From Lachnospiraceae bacterium (lineage in GTDB: Bacteria > Bacillota > Clostridia > Lachnospirales > Lachnospiraceae), in the NCBI GenBank assembly GCA_017624235.1, contig JAGANL010000005.1:1-54641 (forward strand): DNA of 54,641 nt. The letters run 5' to 3'. Each line of letters begins with the position of its first letter. The stretch's first letter is position 1. Of this stretch, positions 19,818 through 31,900 are shown piece after piece. The position numbers were made by a program, and so were the translations under genes. The notes under the pieces were generated by a model, which was not told where the DNA came from, made no database searches, and worked only from the letters and a program-made list of their open reading frames with translations.

Positions 19818-20110
19818 CAGCCATTCAGCCGCACCAGCCTCAGCCCTCCCCGGTCCTGGCCCACAGAGAAAAATTGGGGACATACAGAAGGACTGAGCGT
19901 TTTCTTAATGGAGCATTCAAACCTTAGTGGGAAAATCGGCACGGATGCCGATTTTAGGCTTCCTCGTGCATGGAGGCACATGGAAGCCGACCCGAACGGT
20001 TGTCAATGTTTTCCTGCTCCATTTAGAAAACTCCGGTCCGAATGTCGTCCCCAATTTTTCTCTGTGGGCCAGGGCTAGGGAGGGCTGAGGCTGGTGCGGC
20101 TGAATGGCTG
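19818..20110 (+). repeat. Long-armed structured element, copy A
   Basis: A 293-base element closed by 64-base arms (19818-19881 and 20047-20110) that are reverse complements with only 3 differences. Inside, in order: a left core strand GGACTGAGCG...GGAGC (19890-19914) pairing with GCTCC...GGTCC (20016-20039); a perfect hairpin AAAATCGGCA-CGGA-TGCCGATTTT written as two arms (19932-19941, 19946-19955); a second hairpin GGCTTCC/GGAAGCC (19957-19988); then GACCCGAACGG, apparently unpaired. It starts 15 bases after the trxB stop codon. No ORF is conserved among copies and no transposase is present. Orientation is taken from the conserved core. Confidence 0.85.
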
Positions 20111-20124
20111 TTACTTTCAAATCA

Positions 20125-21042
20125 TTACATTTTCAGGGTAACAAGATAATCCTGCACTCCCGTAATGGCATTTGCGCCGTCCGCTACGGCTGTGACGATC
20201 TGGCGCAATCTCTTGGTACGAACATCCCCTGCCGCAAATATGCCCGGGACGCTGGTTGCACAATCCTCTCCCGCGATATAGTATCCCTTCTCATCCTGCC
20301 TGGCTTCTTTACAGATTTCACCGGAATTTGGCAGGATTCCGACTGCCACGAAGACTCCCTGAACAGGAAGCCTCTGCTCTTCTCCGCTCTTTACGTTCGT
20401 TAAAAGCACACCTTCCACCTGCGTGCCGCCTTCAATCTTCTGCACGATGCTGTCCCAGACCACTTCCACATTCGGAAGCTCAAACAGCTTCTGCTGCAGC
20501 GATTTTGCCGCCCTAAGTTCATCCCTTCTATGCACAAGCCACACCTTACGGCTGGTGCGTGCCAGAAAAACAGCATCCTCCACTGCTACATCACCGCCTC
20601 CTATTACTACAACATCCTTATTCTGAAAGAAAGCTCCATCACAGGTCGCACAATAGGAAACTCCCATGCCGGCCAGTTCTTCTTCCCCGGGTACCGACAG
20701 CTTCGCATGGCTGGCCCCCATTGCCAGCACTACACTTCTGGCCTCCAGAGTCTCCTCTCCGGTCACAACCTTCTTGACTGTACCTTCATTCATGACAGAA
20801 AGCACCTCTGCCTCTTTAAATTCGGCACCAAGCCTGTCCGCATGCTCCCTCATCTGCATCCCCAAATCAAAACCGTTAATCCCGGGGAGCGCCGGATAAT
20901 TGTCCACCTCATAAGTGGTCAGCACCTGCCCTCCACTGGCATAATTCTTCTCCAGAACCAGCATATCCAGTCCCGCACGCCTGGCATATATCGCAGCTGC
21001 CAGCCCCGCCGGGCCGGAGCCGATAATAATAACATCTTTCAT
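20125..21042 (-). CDS. trxB: Thioredoxin reductase-like FAD/NAD(P) oxidoreductase
   Basis: The start at 21042 gives MKDVIIIGSGPAGLAAAIYARRAG, the normal TrxB beginning; the frame continues upstream but without a better ribosome binding site. The 305-residue length fits the family. It has the FAD dinucleotide motif GSGPAG, the redox CATC in VSYCATCDGAFF (near 130), the NAD(P) motif VVIGGGDVAVEDAVFLA with a downstream VHRRDELRA that favours NADPH, and the C-terminal FAD contact GIFAAGDVRTKRLRQIVTAVADG. It reduces thioredoxin or a related disulfide protein in the cytosol. Element A begins just after its stop codon and element B lies upstream. No thioredoxin gene is adjacent, so the partner is unknown. 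Confidence 0.9.
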   Translation of the reverse strand: MKDVIIIGSGPAGLAAAIYARRAGLDMLVLEKNYASGGQVLTTYEVDNYPALPGINGFDLGMQMREHADRLGAEFKEAEVLSVMNEGTVKKVVTGEETLEARSVVLAMGASHAKLSVPGEEELAGMGVSYCATCDGAFFQNKDVVVIGGGDVAVEDAVFLARTSRKVWLVHRRDELRAAKSLQQKLFELPNVEVVWDSIVQKIEGGTQVEGVLLTNVKSGEEQRLPVQGVFVAVGILPNSGEICKEARQDEKGYYIAGEDCATSVPGIFAAGDVRTKRLRQIVTAVADGANAITGVQDYLVTLKM

Positions 21043-21137
21043 CTCACACCTGAACCTTTCTCTTTTTCCTTTTCTCTTTATCATAAATCATTTTCAGGGT
21101 TTTGGGAATGCTTCTTTTATTGTATACTGAGAAGAAA

Positions 21138-21456
21138 GAACTCATTCCACCACCAGCCTGCTGTCTCTTCCCAGCCTGCGCTCCCCCGCTGTCGGGCATC
21201 TGTGTCTGTAAGGTCTACAGAAGGACTGAGCGTTTTCTTAATAGAGCTGTCAAAAGCGCAGGGAAAAATCGGCACGGATGCCGATTTTAGGATTCATGTG
21301 CATGGAAGCACATGGAAGCCGACCCGTACGGCTGAGAAAATAAAACTGCTCTATTTAGAAAACTCCAGTCCGCATGTGACCTTACAGACACAGATACCCG
21401 ACAGTGGGGGGAGCGCAGGCTGGGAAGGGACAGCAGGCTGGTGGTGGAATGAGTTC
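21138..21456 (+). repeat. Long-armed structured element, copy B
   Basis: A 319-base copy with arms of about 78 bases (starting GAACTCATTCCACC at 21138, ending GGTGGAATGAGTTC at 21456) that are reverse complements apart from a few transitions and one indel. The arm sequence is largely unlike copy A, but the core is the same: GGACTGAGCG...AGAGC (21223-21247) with GCTCT...AGTCC (21348-21371), hairpin AAAATCGGCA/TGCCGATTTT (21265-21288), second hairpin with CATGTGC/GCACATG, and GACCCGTACGG. The change GGAGC/GCTCC to AGAGC/GCTCT is compensatory. It fills the divergent gap between trxB and the ymfI-like gene. Confidence 0.85.
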
Positions 21457-21490
21457 CTGCATCACAAACCATCAGGAAAGGAATCTCCAA

Positions 21491-22210
21491 ATGAGAAAGA
21501 GTGCTTTAATTACGGGGAGTTCACGGGGAATCGGGCGTGCGACTGCCTTTGCTCTGGCAGAGCAGGGATATCACCTGTATCTGACCTGTCAGAACAGCAT
21601 GGAACAGCTCAAACAGGTGCAGCATGAAATCACCTCCCGTTTTCCGGTCATCTGCCAAATTTATGAATGCGATATGGGAAATCACGAAGCCGTAAAAAAA
21701 TTATTTTCCGAAATCGAACAACTGACCCTATTGGTCAACAATGCCGGCCGTTCTTATATAGGCTTATTGTCAGAGATGGATGTCAATGACTGGGAAAACC
21801 TGATGCACACCAATCTGGACAGCGTTTTTTTTACCTGCAAATATGCCATCCCGCTTTTTCTGCATCAGGGATACGGACGAATCATCAATATTTCATCCGT
21901 CTGGGGCAATGTCGGCGCTTCTATGGAAGCTGCATATTCTGCTTCCAAAGGCGGTGTCAATGCTCTGACCAAAGCTCTGGCCAGGGAACTGGCTCCCAGT
22001 GGTATACCGGTGAATGCTGTAGCTTTCGGCATGATTGACACGGATATGAACCGTTGCTTTTCCGAGGAAGAACGGGCCGCCATCCAGGAAGAGATTCCGG
22101 CAGACCGTATCGCTTCCCCTGAAGAAGCTGCCCAAATGATCTGCAAACTTGCCGAAACGCCATCCTATCTCACCGGACAGATACTGACCTTTGACGGCGG
22201 CTGGACGTAA
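21491..22210 (+). CDS. SDR oxidoreductase, EF-P 5-aminopentanone reductase (YmfI)-like
   Basis: I start at the ATG at 21491 behind AGGAAAGG; the open frame runs back into element B and is not coding there. The 239-residue SDR has the cofactor motif TGSSRGIG, LVNNAG, a catalytic Ser in NISSVWGNVGAS, YSASK (Tyr and Lys) and a C-terminal LTGQILTFDGGWT. The combination SYIGLL, SSVWGNVGAS and EIPADR matches the FabG-like group now annotated as elongation factor P 5-aminopentanone reductase (YmfI of Bacillus), which finishes the EF-P modification. FabG itself cannot be excluded from motifs alone. It is a single plus-strand gene, and a strong terminator follows. Confidence 0.8.
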   Translation: MRKSALITGSSRGIGRATAFALAEQGYHLYLTCQNSMEQLKQVQHEITSRFPVICQIYECDMGNHEAVKKLFSEIEQLTLLVNNAGRSYIGLLSEMDVNDWENLMHTNLDSVFFTCKYAIPLFLHQGYGRIINISSVWGNVGASMEAAYSASKGGVNALTKALARELAPSGIPVNAVAFGMIDTDMNRCFSEEERAAIQEEIPADRIASPEEAAQMICKLAETPSYLTGQILTFDGGWT

Positions 22211-22270
22211 ACAGCATCAGCCAAAATCAATGGCTGTCCGGAAATCATAACCGTACTTTTACGTCACGTA

Positions 22271-22310
22271 AAAACCCCTGCCGGAACCTATATGACCCGG
22301 CAGGGGTTTT
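22271..22310. terminator. Bidirectional terminator between convergent genes
   Basis: AAAACCCCTGCCGG (22271-22284) and CCGGCAGGGGTTTT (22297-22310) form a perfect 14-base stem. T-runs exist on both strands, so it can end both the ymfI-like gene and the DUF5722 gene. Confidence 0.92.
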
Positions 22311-22377
22311 CTCTTCTTATCTTATACGCTTATCGTACTTAGCTTTCACAGCATTCATTGTCTGAACTTTTTTTGAA

Positions 22378-23994
22378 CTATCTTGCCTGAATTACCTGAC
22401 TCCAGCTGGAGATGCCGATCGTGCGTAAGTAAGGTGCTGTAACAGACTCATCGATATCAATGTATTTGTAAACATTGTAAGCAGCCTTCGGAGAACCGTC
22501 TACATTCTTTAATCCCATCGGAAGTCCCTGTGCGATTTCTGCCTGATAATCAATATCTCTTACTGCAATAAAGGCATCGATATGCTGGTTGTGTTTTGCA
22601 TTTAAGTATGCGTAAGACAGCGCTGCCGCCTGTACATCCTGTCCGAGAGAAGACGGGAAGCCTACCTCACTGACAATCAGGGAACGAACCTGTCCCTTGC
22701 TGTCCAGATTCTGCGGCTTGCACATATAATCGGTCACTACGCACATATTCTGCGGTGTAATCATCGGTGTATTCTCGTTCATGCTTACGAGATTCATTGC
22801 TTTGTACTGCGCCGGCATAGCCCAGAATTTAGGCCATGTAAGCGGTACCGGATACGGGTGGAATGCTACACCCCAGTCATAGTTACCCTTTGCAATAGAG
22901 TTTGCACTCAATGCATCGATAATGTCTCTTCCATCGTAGCCTGTACCTGTCGTCAGATTTCTGTTCCAGGTCTGGTCGATTGAAATATATACTCTTGCAT
23001 TTGCATTGACACTCTTGATACCGGTATAGAAAATACGAAGTACTTTTGCATATTCCTCTGCATAAGTAGTTACATCCATCGGTGCGATATAATTCCACTC
23101 GCTTCTGGCTGTAATCTCATTACCGATAATCCAGTTATCTACACGTCCGCAGCCGATTCCGGAATATCTGGTAGCTAAAAAGCTTGCTGCTGCGGAAAGG
23201 TAATCCACACCGGTCTGATCCGCACCATTCATCATGTAATATGGAGAGGTGGTCTTTGTTCTTGCCAGCGGATGTGTGGTCTGCATACATCTTGCATCCA
23301 GTTCATTTAATAAGATAGCAGATACTACAATACCCTTATCAGACAGTGCCTGAATAACACCGTCTACCTGCTTAACATAGTAGCCGTCCAACTGATAGTT
23401 CTTACCATTATATGTATAGTTGATGGTCGGGTACGCACCATTCGTTGTAGGTCCAAACAATCTGTTAACTGCAATATCAAATGTAGAATGCTTGATACCC
23501 AGATCTTCAATCTCGCCTGTGCTCATCAAAGGCGGATAAATCTGAAGTCCCTTTTTGGATACGGTTGCCGGATACTCCATAGAACGCTCTGCAACTGCTT
23601 CCGGGTTTGCAATATATTTTGCTTCTGAAATCTGAACAAAGCTTCCGCCGGATTTTACTGCTACTGCAAATTTGGAATATAATCTGGAATTTGCCTGCTT
23701 GTTATTCAGCGGGGTTGTAAAGGTTGCTGTCGTACCCATCGGTGCTGTCGCAACCGGGCTTCCTGTCAAACCAGCTGCAAAGGTGGGTAATTCAAATAAA
23801 TATAAAGTACCATCATCACTTGCCTGTCCTGCTGGTACTGCTGCTGTCACTACTACATTGCTTCCGTTAATCGCACAGGACTGTACCAGACTGGTGTAGC
23901 CTGCTGCTTTTACACTGCCTCCACTGATTCCAACAAGGCCAAGAGTGAATGCCATGGCAAATGCTGAAACAAGGGAAAGAATCTTTCTTTTCAT
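22378..23994 (-). CDS. Secreted DUF5722 protein, glycoside-hydrolase-like barrel
   Basis: The 538-residue product has a signal peptide (LSLVSAFAMAFTLGLVGISGG, cut near SVKAA). A beta-rich N-terminal domain (about 35-150) is followed by a TIM-barrel-like domain that I recognise as DUF5722. Candidate catalytic acids are in VDNWIIGNEITARSEW (Glu of GNE) and in SLIVSEVGFPSS (Glu of SE), placed as in clan GH-A hydrolases after strands 4 and 7. Substrate is unknown. GGAGGAGA precedes the ATG. It is transcribed alone; element C lies upstream, between it and the MATE gene. Confidence 0.85.
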   Translation of the reverse strand: MKRKILSLVSAFAMAFTLGLVGISGGSVKAAGYTSLVQSCAINGSNVVVTAAVPAGQASDDGTLYLFELPTFAAGLTGSPVATAPMGTTATFTTPLNNKQANSRLYSKFAVAVKSGGSFVQISEAKYIANPEAVAERSMEYPATVSKKGLQIYPPLMSTGEIEDLGIKHSTFDIAVNRLFGPTTNGAYPTINYTYNGKNYQLDGYYVKQVDGVIQALSDKGIVVSAILLNELDARCMQTTHPLARTKTTSPYYMMNGADQTGVDYLSAAASFLATRYSGIGCGRVDNWIIGNEITARSEWNYIAPMDVTTYAEEYAKVLRIFYTGIKSVNANARVYISIDQTWNRNLTTGTGYDGRDIIDALSANSIAKGNYDWGVAFHPYPVPLTWPKFWAMPAQYKAMNLVSMNENTPMITPQNMCVVTDYMCKPQNLDSKGQVRSLIVSEVGFPSSLGQDVQAAALSYAYLNAKHNQHIDAFIAVRDIDYQAEIAQGLPMGLKNVDGSPKAAYNVYKYIDIDESVTAPYLRTIGISSWSQVIQAR

Positions 23995-24108
23995 TCAGTT
24001 ATCTCCTCCTTCATTTTGTTTGCTATGATGAAAAGCCGTCTATGAAACATTATACGGGAACCGGAAATACTTGTCAATGAACGGATTACAAATTCAGAAT
24101 TTACTGAT

Positions 24109-24395
24109 AACAGTTCAGCCACACCAGTCTCAGCCCTCCCGGCCCTGTCACACGAAGAACATTTCGGGACAACATTCGGACTGGAGTTTTCTAAATGGAG
24201 CAAAAAAGCATGGGAAACCGTTCGGGTCAGCGTCAATGTGCATCCATGCACATGACGCTTAAAATCGGCATCCGTGCCGATTTTTCCCTGGATTTTGAAT
24301 GCTCCATCAAGAAAACGCTCAGTCCTGCTGTATGTCTCGAAATGTTCTTCGTGTGGCAGGGCCGGGAGGGCTGAGACTGGTGTGACTGAACGGTT
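24109..24395 (-). repeat. Long-armed structured element, copy C (inverted orientation)
   Basis: A 287-base copy in the opposite orientation to A and B. Its arms of about 62 bases (from AACAGTTCAG at 24109 to TGAACGGTT at 24395) are reverse complements with 4 differences. On the minus strand the core reads GGACTGAGCG...GGAGC (24301-24325) paired with 24178-24201, the AAAATCGGCA/TGCCGATTTT hairpin (24261-24284), a second hairpin with AGCGTCA/TGACGCT (24229-24259) and GACCCGAACGG. The second-hairpin stem differs from A (GGCTTCC/GGAAGCC) but still pairs. It ends 5 bases from the MATE stop codon. Confidence 0.85.
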
Positions 24396-24400
24396 ATCCT

Positions 24401-25768
24401 TTACTGCACCACCTGAAACCGCTTCCACTTTCCGGAATAAAAACGGAGGGTGAAAATCACAGCTCTGACTGTCCAATCGGTGAACATGCCGATCCAGACT
24501 GCCATGGGGCCAAAGCCCTGAACCCGGCAAAGATAGATGCACAGGCTCACGCGGAAAATCCACATGGAAGCCGCCGAAACCAGCATGGAGAACTTCACAT
24601 CTCCCGCTGCCCGCAATCCATAGGCCGGGATAAAGGCCAGTGTCCAGACCAACGGCTTTACGATGGTAATCGCCAGCATCATATCCATACACATCTGCGC
24701 GCTCTCCGGCTCCATACCGCCCAAAATCGTCACTGGTCTGGCAATCACATAGACTACCAGACAGCAGATAATGATTCCAACCTCGCTGACCGCCGTCAGC
24801 TTCTTAATATAGTAGGAAGCCTCATCGGGTCTGCCGGCTCCCATGCACTGTCCCACAATTGTCATCAGACCGATGCCAATGCCCATGACAGCCATGCCGT
24901 TCAGCATTTCCAGTATATTGGTCATGGCCTGCGCGGCTATGGAAATCGTCCCCAGCGTGGATACGGTAGACTGAATCGCCAGCTTGCCGAATTGGAACAT
25001 ACCATTTTCAATGCCGGACGGTATGCCGATGGCCAGAACCCTTCCAATTAGTCCTGCATTGGGACGGATCGTATGATAGGAACGCACCGATATCCGGTTC
25101 TTGGGATTACGCAGAAAATACATCACCGTTACCGCGCAAAATACTCTGGATAACAGCGTCGCCAGAGCCGCTCCTCGTACACCCATGGAAAATCCCCAGA
25201 TAAACAACGCATTTCCTCCGATATTGAGAAAATTGGACACAACGGAAATCGTCATTGGACAACGGCTGTTCTCCTGCGCCCGAAAGATGGAGGCTCCGGT
25301 ATCATACAGGCCGATAAACGGAAAAGAAAGCGCCGTATAAAAAAAGTAGATTCTGGAAGCCTGCATGACATCCGCCTCCACCCTGCCGAACAGAATACGC
25401 AAAAGAGGCTCCTGAAAAATCAGACAGCAAGCCGTCAATAGAGTCGCTATGACTGTTACGATAAAAACCGTCTGTCTGGCCGCCTCCACAGCCCGCTCTT
25501 CTTCCTTCTTTCCCAGAAAATGAGCACAGACAATGGTTCCGCCTGCTGCCAGCGCGGTAAATGCCTGTATCACCAGGACATTCAGGGAATCCACCAGTGA
25601 AACCGCCGACATCGCTGCCGCTCCCACATTGCTTACCATAATCGTGTCAATCATTCCCATCAGACAATTCAAAAGCTGCTCTACCATAAGTGGTATCAAC
25701 AGCTTCCTGAGTTCCAGATTACTGAACATATGCCCGCTCTTCTGCTGTATCTTACTCTGCGTCTTCAT
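24401..25768 (-). CDS. MATE family efflux transporter
   Basis: The ATG at 25768 is chosen for AGGAAAGG 8 bases upstream; the frame also has ATGs at 25774 and 25792. The 455-residue protein has twelve hydrophobic segments in two MATE halves. The first half contains LLIPLMVEQLLNCLMGMIDTIMVSNVG and the second GIPSGIENGMFQFGKLAIQSTVSTLG, the repeat relationship expected of the family. MATE pumps export cationic drugs or metabolites using Na+ or H+; the substrate cannot be predicted. It follows the GTPase-NYN gene by 33 bases and may be co-transcribed. Element C abuts its stop codon. Confidence 0.9.
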   Translation of the reverse strand: MKTQSKIQQKSGHMFSNLELRKLLIPLMVEQLLNCLMGMIDTIMVSNVGAAAMSAVSLVDSLNVLVIQAFTALAAGGTIVCAHFLGKKEEERAVEAARQTVFIVTVIATLLTACCLIFQEPLLRILFGRVEADVMQASRIYFFYTALSFPFIGLYDTGASIFRAQENSRCPMTISVVSNFLNIGGNALFIWGFSMGVRGAALATLLSRVFCAVTVMYFLRNPKNRISVRSYHTIRPNAGLIGRVLAIGIPSGIENGMFQFGKLAIQSTVSTLGTISIAAQAMTNILEMLNGMAVMGIGIGLMTIVGQCMGAGRPDEASYYIKKLTAVSEVGIIICCLVVYVIARPVTILGGMEPESAQMCMDMMLAITIVKPLVWTLAFIPAYGLRAAGDVKFSMLVSAASMWIFRVSLCIYLCRVQGFGPMAVWIGMFTDWTVRAVIFTLRFYSGKWKRFQVVQ

Positions 25769-25801
25769 AACCATGCCCTTTCCTATGTCCATCCTTAAAG
25801 A

Positions 25802-31732: not shown

Positions 31733-31900
31733 AAAAAAACCACCTGGACGCACTTTTATCATGCTGCCCAGGCGGTCGGCTCTTTCCTTCCATATTTTAT
31801 GACCAGACACTGCTTCTGCCTCGCACAAAATACCCATACACTTCCTGTAGGTTCTCCTACACAGGCAACACCTGCTTCCGCCAGTCGTGTATCTGCTTCT
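31733..31900 (-). promoter_or_regulatory. ZTP (pfl) riboswitch with overlapping terminator
   Basis: On the minus strand the two conserved aptamer halves are visible: ACACGACTGGCGGAAG (GACTGGCGGAAG at 31875-31886) and CCGACCGCCTGGGCA (31765-31779), joined by a variable hairpin. ACCGCCTGG (31768-31776) can alternatively pair with CCAGGTGGT (31739-31747) followed by seven Ts. That terminator competes with the aptamer core. ZTP/ZMP, which accumulates when formyl-folate is short, would therefore favour read-through into purO-purH. Confidence 0.93.

Follow-up and report, generated by a model that had tools for sequence, protein, structure and literature searches.

Dispersed TwoAYGGAY repeats with twin hexaloops in a Lachnospiraceae genome: candidate ligands of CsrA

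What do three long-armed, nearly self-complementary elements represent that lie close to each other in one stretch of Lachnospiraceae DNA (54,641 nt, here called the window; Table 1)? An earlier note had proposed a structured RNA family or a mobile hairpin DNA and had recognized no described family behind them.

Three copies of TwoAYGGAY

The cores of elements A, B and C match the covariance model of Rfam RF01731, TwoAYGGAY, for which the gathering cut-off is 43 bits. Judged by these matches, the three elements are almost certainly copies of TwoAYGGAY. The earlier note had itself named an Rfam match as evidence against its proposal, hence the family is not an undescribed one. TwoAYGGAY (Weinberg et al. 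2010, PMC2864571) has carried a name since 2010, without an assigned function, and a role involving CsrA was put forward in 2014 on the basis of motif matches (PMC4333381). The elements share with the Rfam family two AYGGAY-type hairpins within a covarying closing stem, and all three copies reach the gathering score; however, the Rfam model stops where the long arms of the present elements start.

The positions first given for the three elements proved good, and so did the inverted orientation of C, the dissimilarity between the arms of B and those of A and C, and the presence of a closing stem, two hairpins and a conserved unpaired stretch. The suspected covariation of the stems was borne out by 54 aligned cores, in which 89.4% of the cells are paired and 24 of 26 pairs show two-sided change. 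The covariation score of 0.752 compares with 0.199 for shuffled and at most 0.203 for slid alignments and exceeds all 500 shuffles. By covariation, the element is a structured family. Core identity is 81% when the loci are turned to a common strand.

Table 1. Location of the three elements, their parts and neighbouring genes within the window
Feature	Position	Strand	Remark
Element A, whole (arms and core)	19818..20110	+	site empty in same-genus genome G001
A arms	19818-19881 with 20047-20110		95% complementary
A core	19883..20046	+	TwoAYGGAY RF01731, 73.4 bits
A loop 1, ACGGAT, closed by C-G (CsrA-type ANGGAN)	19941..19946	+	read from sequence and pattern count
A loop 2, ATGGAG, closed by C-G	19970..19975	+	read from sequence and pattern count
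Element B, whole	21138..21456	+	site empty in same-genus genome G001
B arms	21138-21215 with 21379-21456		92-94% complementary (two blocks found)
B core	21216..21378	+	RF01731, 84.5 bits
B loop 1, ACGGAT, closed by C-G	21274..21279	+	read from sequence and pattern count
B loop 2, ATGGAA, closed by C-G	21302..21307	+	25 nt separate the two GGA of B
Element C, whole	24106..24398	-	G001 site: single flank matched only
C arms	24106-24171 with 24333-24398		94% complementary
C core	24171..24332	-	RF01731, 82.3 bits
C loop 1, ACGGAT	24270..24275	-	read from sequence and pattern count
C loop 2, ATGGAT	24242..24247	-	read from sequence and pattern count
Pyridine nucleotide-disulphide oxidoreductase gene	20125..21084	-	presumably trxB-like; stop codon 14 bp from A
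Short-chain dehydrogenase gene	21491..22210	+	ATG 21491 (start chosen by us) 34 bp past B
MatE transporter gene	24401..25792	-	stop codon 2 bp from C

A dispersed repeat with long self-complementary arms

The elements are not restricted to the three copies first counted: 36 copies in the own genome (G000) score over the RF01731 cut-off, and two further genomes hold 50 (G160) and 47 (G059) matches. Their occurrence is patchy, with 6 of 41 relatives and 35 of 200 genomes of the family carrying them; within the phylum it is 45 of 299 genomes, 30 of them with copies over the cut-off. In some genomes close pairs of elements stand in inverted orientation.

Arms of 49–87 bp are found in all 35 G000 copies with intact flanks. 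They match themselves far better (median 96%) than the arms of other copies (70%), and local scores reach at least 40.5 in the 35 measured copies versus at most 11 in 70 controls, for which the same measurement was made at positions shifted by 800 bp.

Comparison with G001, a genome of the same genus, yielded sites without the element. Of 35 loci tried, both flanks were matched at six, A and B included, within 711,587 bases of G001, and all six are empty. Therefore, the copies were gained by insertion in G000 or lost in G001; the comparison is compatible with both. The target duplication that the note had proposed to look for at such sites is absent from L028, the empty site resolved to a single base. 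Flanking 7–8-mers occur at 6 of 35 copies (about two expected), none of them at L028, and the outer arm ends, inspected by eye, are unshared in G000. In G059, an end resembling GGTGTCAAAAC is seen repeatedly. Thus, this is a dispersed repeat with long self-complementary arms, gained by insertion (or lost in G001) without clear target duplication. Because of the empty sites and the arms, the elements behave like non-autonomous mobile insertions, and mobile-type dispersal is highly probable. Each half of the original either-or thus holds in part, the RNA family through covariation and the mobile DNA through empty sites and high, patchy copy number; the novelty does not.

A mobilizing enzyme was not found: the loci examined contain no autonomous element, and clustering of their ORFs gave no recurrent neighbour or helper gene. 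The clusters that did appear were G000 frames reading through the element itself, orthologues at loci that had been included for the synteny comparison or as FMN control, and common families such as ABC transporters; a divergent csrA together with flagellin came from regions included for csrA. A phage or plasmid origin was rejected, as B matches none of 72,556 plasmid records and none of 50,697 phage records; viral contigs, searched with one element pattern, gave none either.

Twin hexaloops and the occurrence of csrA

Among the 36 G000 copies, 35 carry two C-[ANGGAN]-G hexaloops with a spacing of about 26 nt. Both hairpins contain the exact motif CANGGANG in these 35 of 36 and, over all genomes, in 109 of 174 copies (3 of 174 reverse-complement cores, 1–2% of shuffled windows), while at the places searched it is missing from one or both hairpins in the other 65. 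The two GGAs are separated by 24–28 nt in 108 of the 109 two-motif copies, which hence carry, as expected of a sequestering sRNA, at least two ANGGAN hexaloops at dimer spacing. G000 arms hold 95 mismatches in 2,319 positions, which when halved gives a decay of 2.05% per site. At this rate 8.9 changes would be expected in the loop and closing positions (n=432), but a single one was seen (P=0.0014; P=0.07 at an assumed 1% per site). The AAAATCGGCA hairpin, formerly called invariant, is so within the own genome; across genera its stem varies freely and the loop is retained. Thus, the twin C-[ANGGAN]-G hexaloops stay almost constant as stems and arms diverge.

By its sequence, the hexaloop form equals the published high-affinity site of CsrA/RsmE (PMC4005645, PMC7652899, PMC4894983), free and fixed loop positions follow the CsrA pattern, and the gap falls within the 10–63 nt that one CsrA dimer can span (PMC7652899). 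The stems of TwoAYGGAY are long, unlike those of SELEX-selected CsrA sites, which are mostly short (PMC7652899).

The distribution of the elements also relates to csrA, which was detected in 34 of 35 element-bearing versus 76 of 165 other genomes of the family draw (n=200) and in 43 of 45 versus 170 of 254 in the phylum draw (n=299). FlhA is present in all 35 element-bearing genomes of the first draw and in 44 of the 45 in the second, so that csrA and flagella are almost inseparable, and csrA alone was dismissed as the explanation for the distribution within the own family. Among FlhA-positive genomes, elements occur in 42 of 207 csrA-positive and 2 of 39 csrA-negative ones (p=0.022, with genomes that are not independent points). 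The own genome has only a divergent CsrA (58.7 bits), and G397 shows nine element matches, all that were scored, and no csrA match.

Possible roles and related systems

Our best reading, which we hold to be slightly on the probable side, is that these are dispersed TwoAYGGAY repeats whose RNA would be a ligand of CsrA. Once the element is copied into RNA, the long helix would hold out the two loops for one CsrA dimer, so that the copies may jointly serve as ligand or sponge for CsrA. If so, many genomes of the phylum would hold dozens of CsrA traps not counted as such by annotation. Mobility would be supplied in trans by a putative enzyme, and the arms would be near-perfect from insertion or be kept so by correction at the DNA level. 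Like the earlier motif matches, loop constraint, loop spacing and the co-occurrence with csrA among flagellated genomes favour CsrA, and dispersal as a repeat family fits the absence of a gene association for TwoAYGGAY. Against this reading, the strand is random relative to genes, so that the sense read needed could, for many copies, come only from a putative promoter of the element itself. The near-inseparability of csrA and flagella, G397, the copies short of the exact motif, the divergent CsrA of the own genome, the long stems and a weak wobble bias (see below) count against it as well. In the parts of the TwoAYGGAY literature available to us, 36–50 copies per genome, empty sites and a csrA association were not found.

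A wider version is more tentative: a mobile repeat may spread a putative CsrA-binding RNA through Bacillota-type genomes, and if the folded RNA traps CsrA at two sites, copy number would set a genome-wide CsrA buffer. If true, this would be an equivalent of CsrB/RsmZ that a transposon has produced beyond the Gammaproteobacteria, and CsrA might be part of the life cycle of the element. In Bacillus, CsrA is held by the protein FliW (PMC7652899).

The strongest alternative, although rather unlikely, is a selfish, MITE-like palindromic DNA repeat, in which a putative transposase would recognize the folded single strand, and the ANGGAN loops would owe their conservation to being read by this enzyme instead of CsrA. 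Empty sites without clear target duplication and the random strand agree with it, as do the few one-sided pair changes (23 versus 456 two-sided; 21 versus 58 in the FMN riboswitch control) and a T.T mismatch that persists in the closing stem, counted 165 times across 174 copies. G.U mismatches do not exceed A.C in the core on MAFFT alignments (34 versus 42 and 38 versus 46), and hairpin stems gave 3 versus 0 and 5 versus 7. However, strict counts of isolated arm mismatches show some excess of G.U, with 105 versus 71 in the enlarged copy set (closing stem 12 versus 5) and 61 versus 46 in the smaller one (closing stem 8 versus 3); strand-corrected G000 arms gave 40 versus 30, and looser counts 16 versus 30 in G059 and 33 versus 31 in the remaining genomes. 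This mild excess lies between neutral inverted repeats (235 versus 266) and terminator-like hairpins (27 versus 9), and such counts neither establish nor contradict the suggested homogenization of the arms by template switching. The CsrA-like pattern of the loop positions, a distribution tracking csrA within flagellated genomes and the lack of a recurrent gene adjoining copies in the loci examined also argue against a purely selfish repeat.

Bidirectional terminators or stabilizers of mRNA 3' ends, kept for their place just past stop codons, appear improbable. They would work in either orientation, and of the 27 stop codons next to G000 copies, 18 are no more than 18 bp away from an arm, but beyond this genome only 35 of 142 neighbouring stop codons come within 25 bp. 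No consistent T-run follows the arms, the same-genus genome lacks the element at six sites, and loops and csrA association would stay unexplained. A cis-regulatory mRNA leader is very improbable: Rfam gives the type as Cis-reg and B is directly upstream of the dehydrogenase gene, but no constant sense placement relative to a gene under control was found (51 same versus 49 opposite strand in tandem contexts, 165 contexts in all), and this random strand speaks against such a role, as does the 'n' for cis-reg in the table of Weinberg et al. (PMC2864571). Least probable is a REP/REPIN-type repeat mobilized by a RAYT (Y1) transposase, despite the palindromes, the nearness to stop codons and the inverted pairs, as Y1_Tnp (PF01797) was not found in the own genome, where this mover is rejected except for whatever the assembly, rated 80% complete, lacks, and occurs in 17 of 35 element-bearing versus 98 of 165 other genomes (members counted by eye).

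ERIC, REPIN and RUP/BOX are likewise small palindromic intergenic repeats that depend on a trans-acting or uncharacterized mover, and REPIN/RAYT systems have a GTAG or CGTC tag at the hairpin foot. The present elements differ from them in their much longer, copy-variable arms, the conserved double-loop core and in that no RAYT was found in the own genome. With the sRNAs CsrB, CsrC and RsmXYZ they share GGA in C-G-closed ANGGAN hexaloops, at least two per RNA. Those sRNAs have many sites, whereas the putative TwoAYGGAY RNA would combine two sites on one long helix, with dozens of genomic copies.

Family, arms and literature

A covariance-model scan assigned the cores of A, B and C, the three long-armed elements of the window, to TwoAYGGAY (Rfam RF01731), all above the gathering cut-off of 43 bits (Table). 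The coordinates which an earlier note had given for them were borne out in the sequence; that note had not recognised a described family. TwoAYGGAY is a known family, for which we did not find dispersal described: as far as its text was available, the literature naming it made no mention of dispersal, of arms this long or of co-occurrence with csrA. A search mostly without subscription papers found none on intergenic palindromes of Lachnospiraceae, and literature on CsrA sponges in Clostridia did not name TwoAYGGAY among the matches listed (titles and beginnings of abstracts).

Table. Positions of elements and other features in the window and in locus L155 of the same genome
Feature	Position	Strand	Score or remark
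Element A	19818-20110	+	
A core, RF01731	19883-20046	+	73.4 bits
Element B	21138-21456	+	
B core, RF01731	21216-21378	+	84.5 bits
Element C	24106-24398	-	
C core, RF01731	24171-24332	-	82.3 bits
ZTP riboswitch match	31759-31898	-	39 bits, exactly at gathering score
Diverged CsrA-like protein, 124 aa	L155 6526-6900		beside flagellin

The genome of the window (G000) holds 37 RF01731 matches at E<=0.001, 36 of them above cut-off. Arms, which fall beyond the ends of the model, were measured in 35 of these 36 copies (L026, at a contig end, was omitted). All 35 possess them, with lengths of 49–87 bp outside the core, 85–100% complementarity and arm scores of at least 40.5, versus at most 11 in controls shifted by 800 bp (n=70). 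The left and right arm of one copy show a median agreement of 96% (minimum 88%). Between copies the median is 70% for left arms and 81% for cores; the arm alignments have free ends, and short overlaps may inflate single between-copy values.

Conservation of the core and pairing of the arms

The covarying stems which the earlier note had proposed were confirmed. In 54 aligned cores, part of the roughly 100 available at that stage, support for the structure is good, with 89.4% of the cells paired, two-sided changes at 24 of 26 pairs and a covariation score of 0.752 versus 0.199 in shuffles. While stem sequences vary freely, the two GGA-bearing loops do not, except at their second and last positions. 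Site 1 forms a hexaloop hairpin in 141 of 174 copies; 134 read ANGGAN, all closed by C-G, and the other seven, all from one genome (G139), appear one base out of register. At site 2 there are 123 hexaloop hairpins, 105 with ANGGAN, of which 104 are closed by C-G. The exact motif CANGGANG occurs in both hairpins of 109/174 copies across all genomes (35/36 in G000), with a GGA-to-GGA gap of 24–28 nt in 108 of these 109, versus motif occurrence in 3/174 reverse-complement control cores. Loop and closing positions in G000 show one change in 432, versus 8.9 expected at arm decay (P=0.0014 at this rate; P=0.07 at 1% per site). Judged from these counts, the loops were therefore probably kept in place after insertion.

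If pairing were kept at the RNA level, G.U mismatches should outnumber A.C. Under a strict rule, which accepted a mismatch only when it was isolated and flanked by three pairs on either side, we counted 105 G.U versus 71 A.C in the arms and 12 versus 5 in 3,394 closing-stem pairs. A like rule gave 235 versus 266 in comparison inverted repeats without a T-run, 63 versus 50 in a middle class and 27 versus 9 in terminator-like hairpins. Counted on alignments instead, 30 of 42 FMN riboswitch matches yielded 24 versus 0 and TwoAYGGAY, in an alignment containing misaligned cells, 38 versus 46. One-sided versus two-sided changes were 23 to 456 for TwoAYGGAY and 21 to 58 for the riboswitch. Given these wobble and pair-change counts, the arms show a little sign of possible RNA-level constraint and much that would fit their being young or DNA-corrected.

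Most copies retain a T.T mismatch in their closing stem, with 165 instances counted over the 174 copies, even though template switching would erase such a mismatch. Arms of two copies (L039, L045) in the same-genus genome G001 are more decayed than the 35 measured in G000 (82% and 75% complementary), so that arm quality may serve as an age clock.

Insertion sites, placement and distribution

All 35 flank pairs of G000 were compared with 711,587 bases, about a quarter of G001. Both flanks matched one G001 piece at six loci (L003, B, L017, L028, L029 and A), and the element was absent from G001 at all six; the A and B sites are empty in C22:42572-49900, which is syntenic with the window. Two further loci, including C, matched on a single flank, and the remaining pairs had no partner in these bases. 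At L028, resolved to the base, the flanks meet without gain or loss and therefore without target duplication; L003, L017 and L029 have diverged flanks and an inexact junction. A weak signal came from 7-8-mer direct repeats at the ends of 6/35 copies, versus about 2 expected from swapped flanks. A Y1/RAYT enzyme as mover was rejected for G000, where none was found; such enzymes occur in 17/35 element-bearing and 98/165 other genomes of the family.

By a simple ORF caller, which at A and B chose a chance ORF instead of the true neighbour, all 35 copies lie between their two nearest genes. Six (L002, B, L013, L017, L020, L029) are spanned by open frames of 124–365 aa, which we take, without proof, to be chance frames; that of B runs against an oxidoreductase gene. 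Neighbouring stop codons lie within 18 bp of an arm in 18 of 27 cases in G000. When contexts were pooled over all genomes (165, after exclusion of copies flanked by <300 bases), strand was random to the neighbours, with 51 same-strand and 49 opposite in tandem contexts; a cis-regulatory role is thus improbable. Of the copies lying <=25 bp from a stop codon, 34 run antisense and 19 sense to the gene (p=0.053); outside G000 the split is 27 antisense to 8 sense, as if these copies were convergent with the gene. Elsewhere in the window, the ZTP riboswitch match precedes IMP cyclohydrolase-like and AICARFT/IMPCHase genes and so fits its class.

Under filters stricter than that used for G000, TwoAYGGAY matches were present in 6/41 relatives (G001 has two), 35/200 genomes of the family and 45/299 of the phylum (30 above cut-off), the latter 45 spanning 22 families counted by hand; per-genome counts are lower bounds, since at most 13 (family) or 9 (phylum) candidates were scored. 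Full searches gave 47 matches in G059 and 50 in G160, where many copies sit at contig ends, as with similar repeats. Element B had no similarity match in plasmid or phage collections. Neighbouring copies separated by <600 bp stand back to back in most cases, with the minus-strand copy first (8/9 pairs among the matches listed: G009:C47, G009:C33, G160:C92, G160:C125, twice G103:C1, G054:C123, G059:C50); a further such pair lies in L236 (G183:C36). In L127 and L118 of G160 two subfamilies adjoin inside larger repeats that extend over several hundred bases.

Co-occurrence with csrA and likeness to CsrA sites

In the family, csrA was found in 34/35 element-bearing versus 76/165 other genomes (Fisher 2e-9), the exception being G185. 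The flagellar gene product FlhA, found in 35/35 versus 76/165, lets flagella account equally well for this pattern. In the phylum the figures were 43/45 versus 170/254 for csrA and 44/45 versus 202/254 for FlhA. Among FlhA-positive genomes of the phylum, elements occur in 42/207 with csrA versus 2/39 without (p=0.022); among the FlhA-negative ones they occur in 1/6 with csrA and in 0/47 with neither gene. These statistics treat genomes as independent, which they are not, and include matches under the Rfam cut-off. No csrA was found in G397, with at least 9 element matches, or in G450 (75% complete), with one match at E=0.001. In G000, an assembly rated 80% complete, the search for CsrA yielded only a divergent CsrA-like gene adjoining flagellin; the same holds for G160 (L156), while G059, G054, G009 and G077 have such a protein plus a canonical CsrA.

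The loops resemble published sites. A high-affinity RsmE site consists of an ANGGAX hexaloop that sits immediately on a stem, with C-G closure in RsmZ (PMC4005645); the CsrA site is written as CANGGANG (PMC4894983), and a SELEX consensus is accompanied by an intersite range of 10–63 nt, best >18 (PMC7652899). CsrA binding has already been proposed for TwoAYGGAY itself from motif matches (PMC4333381).
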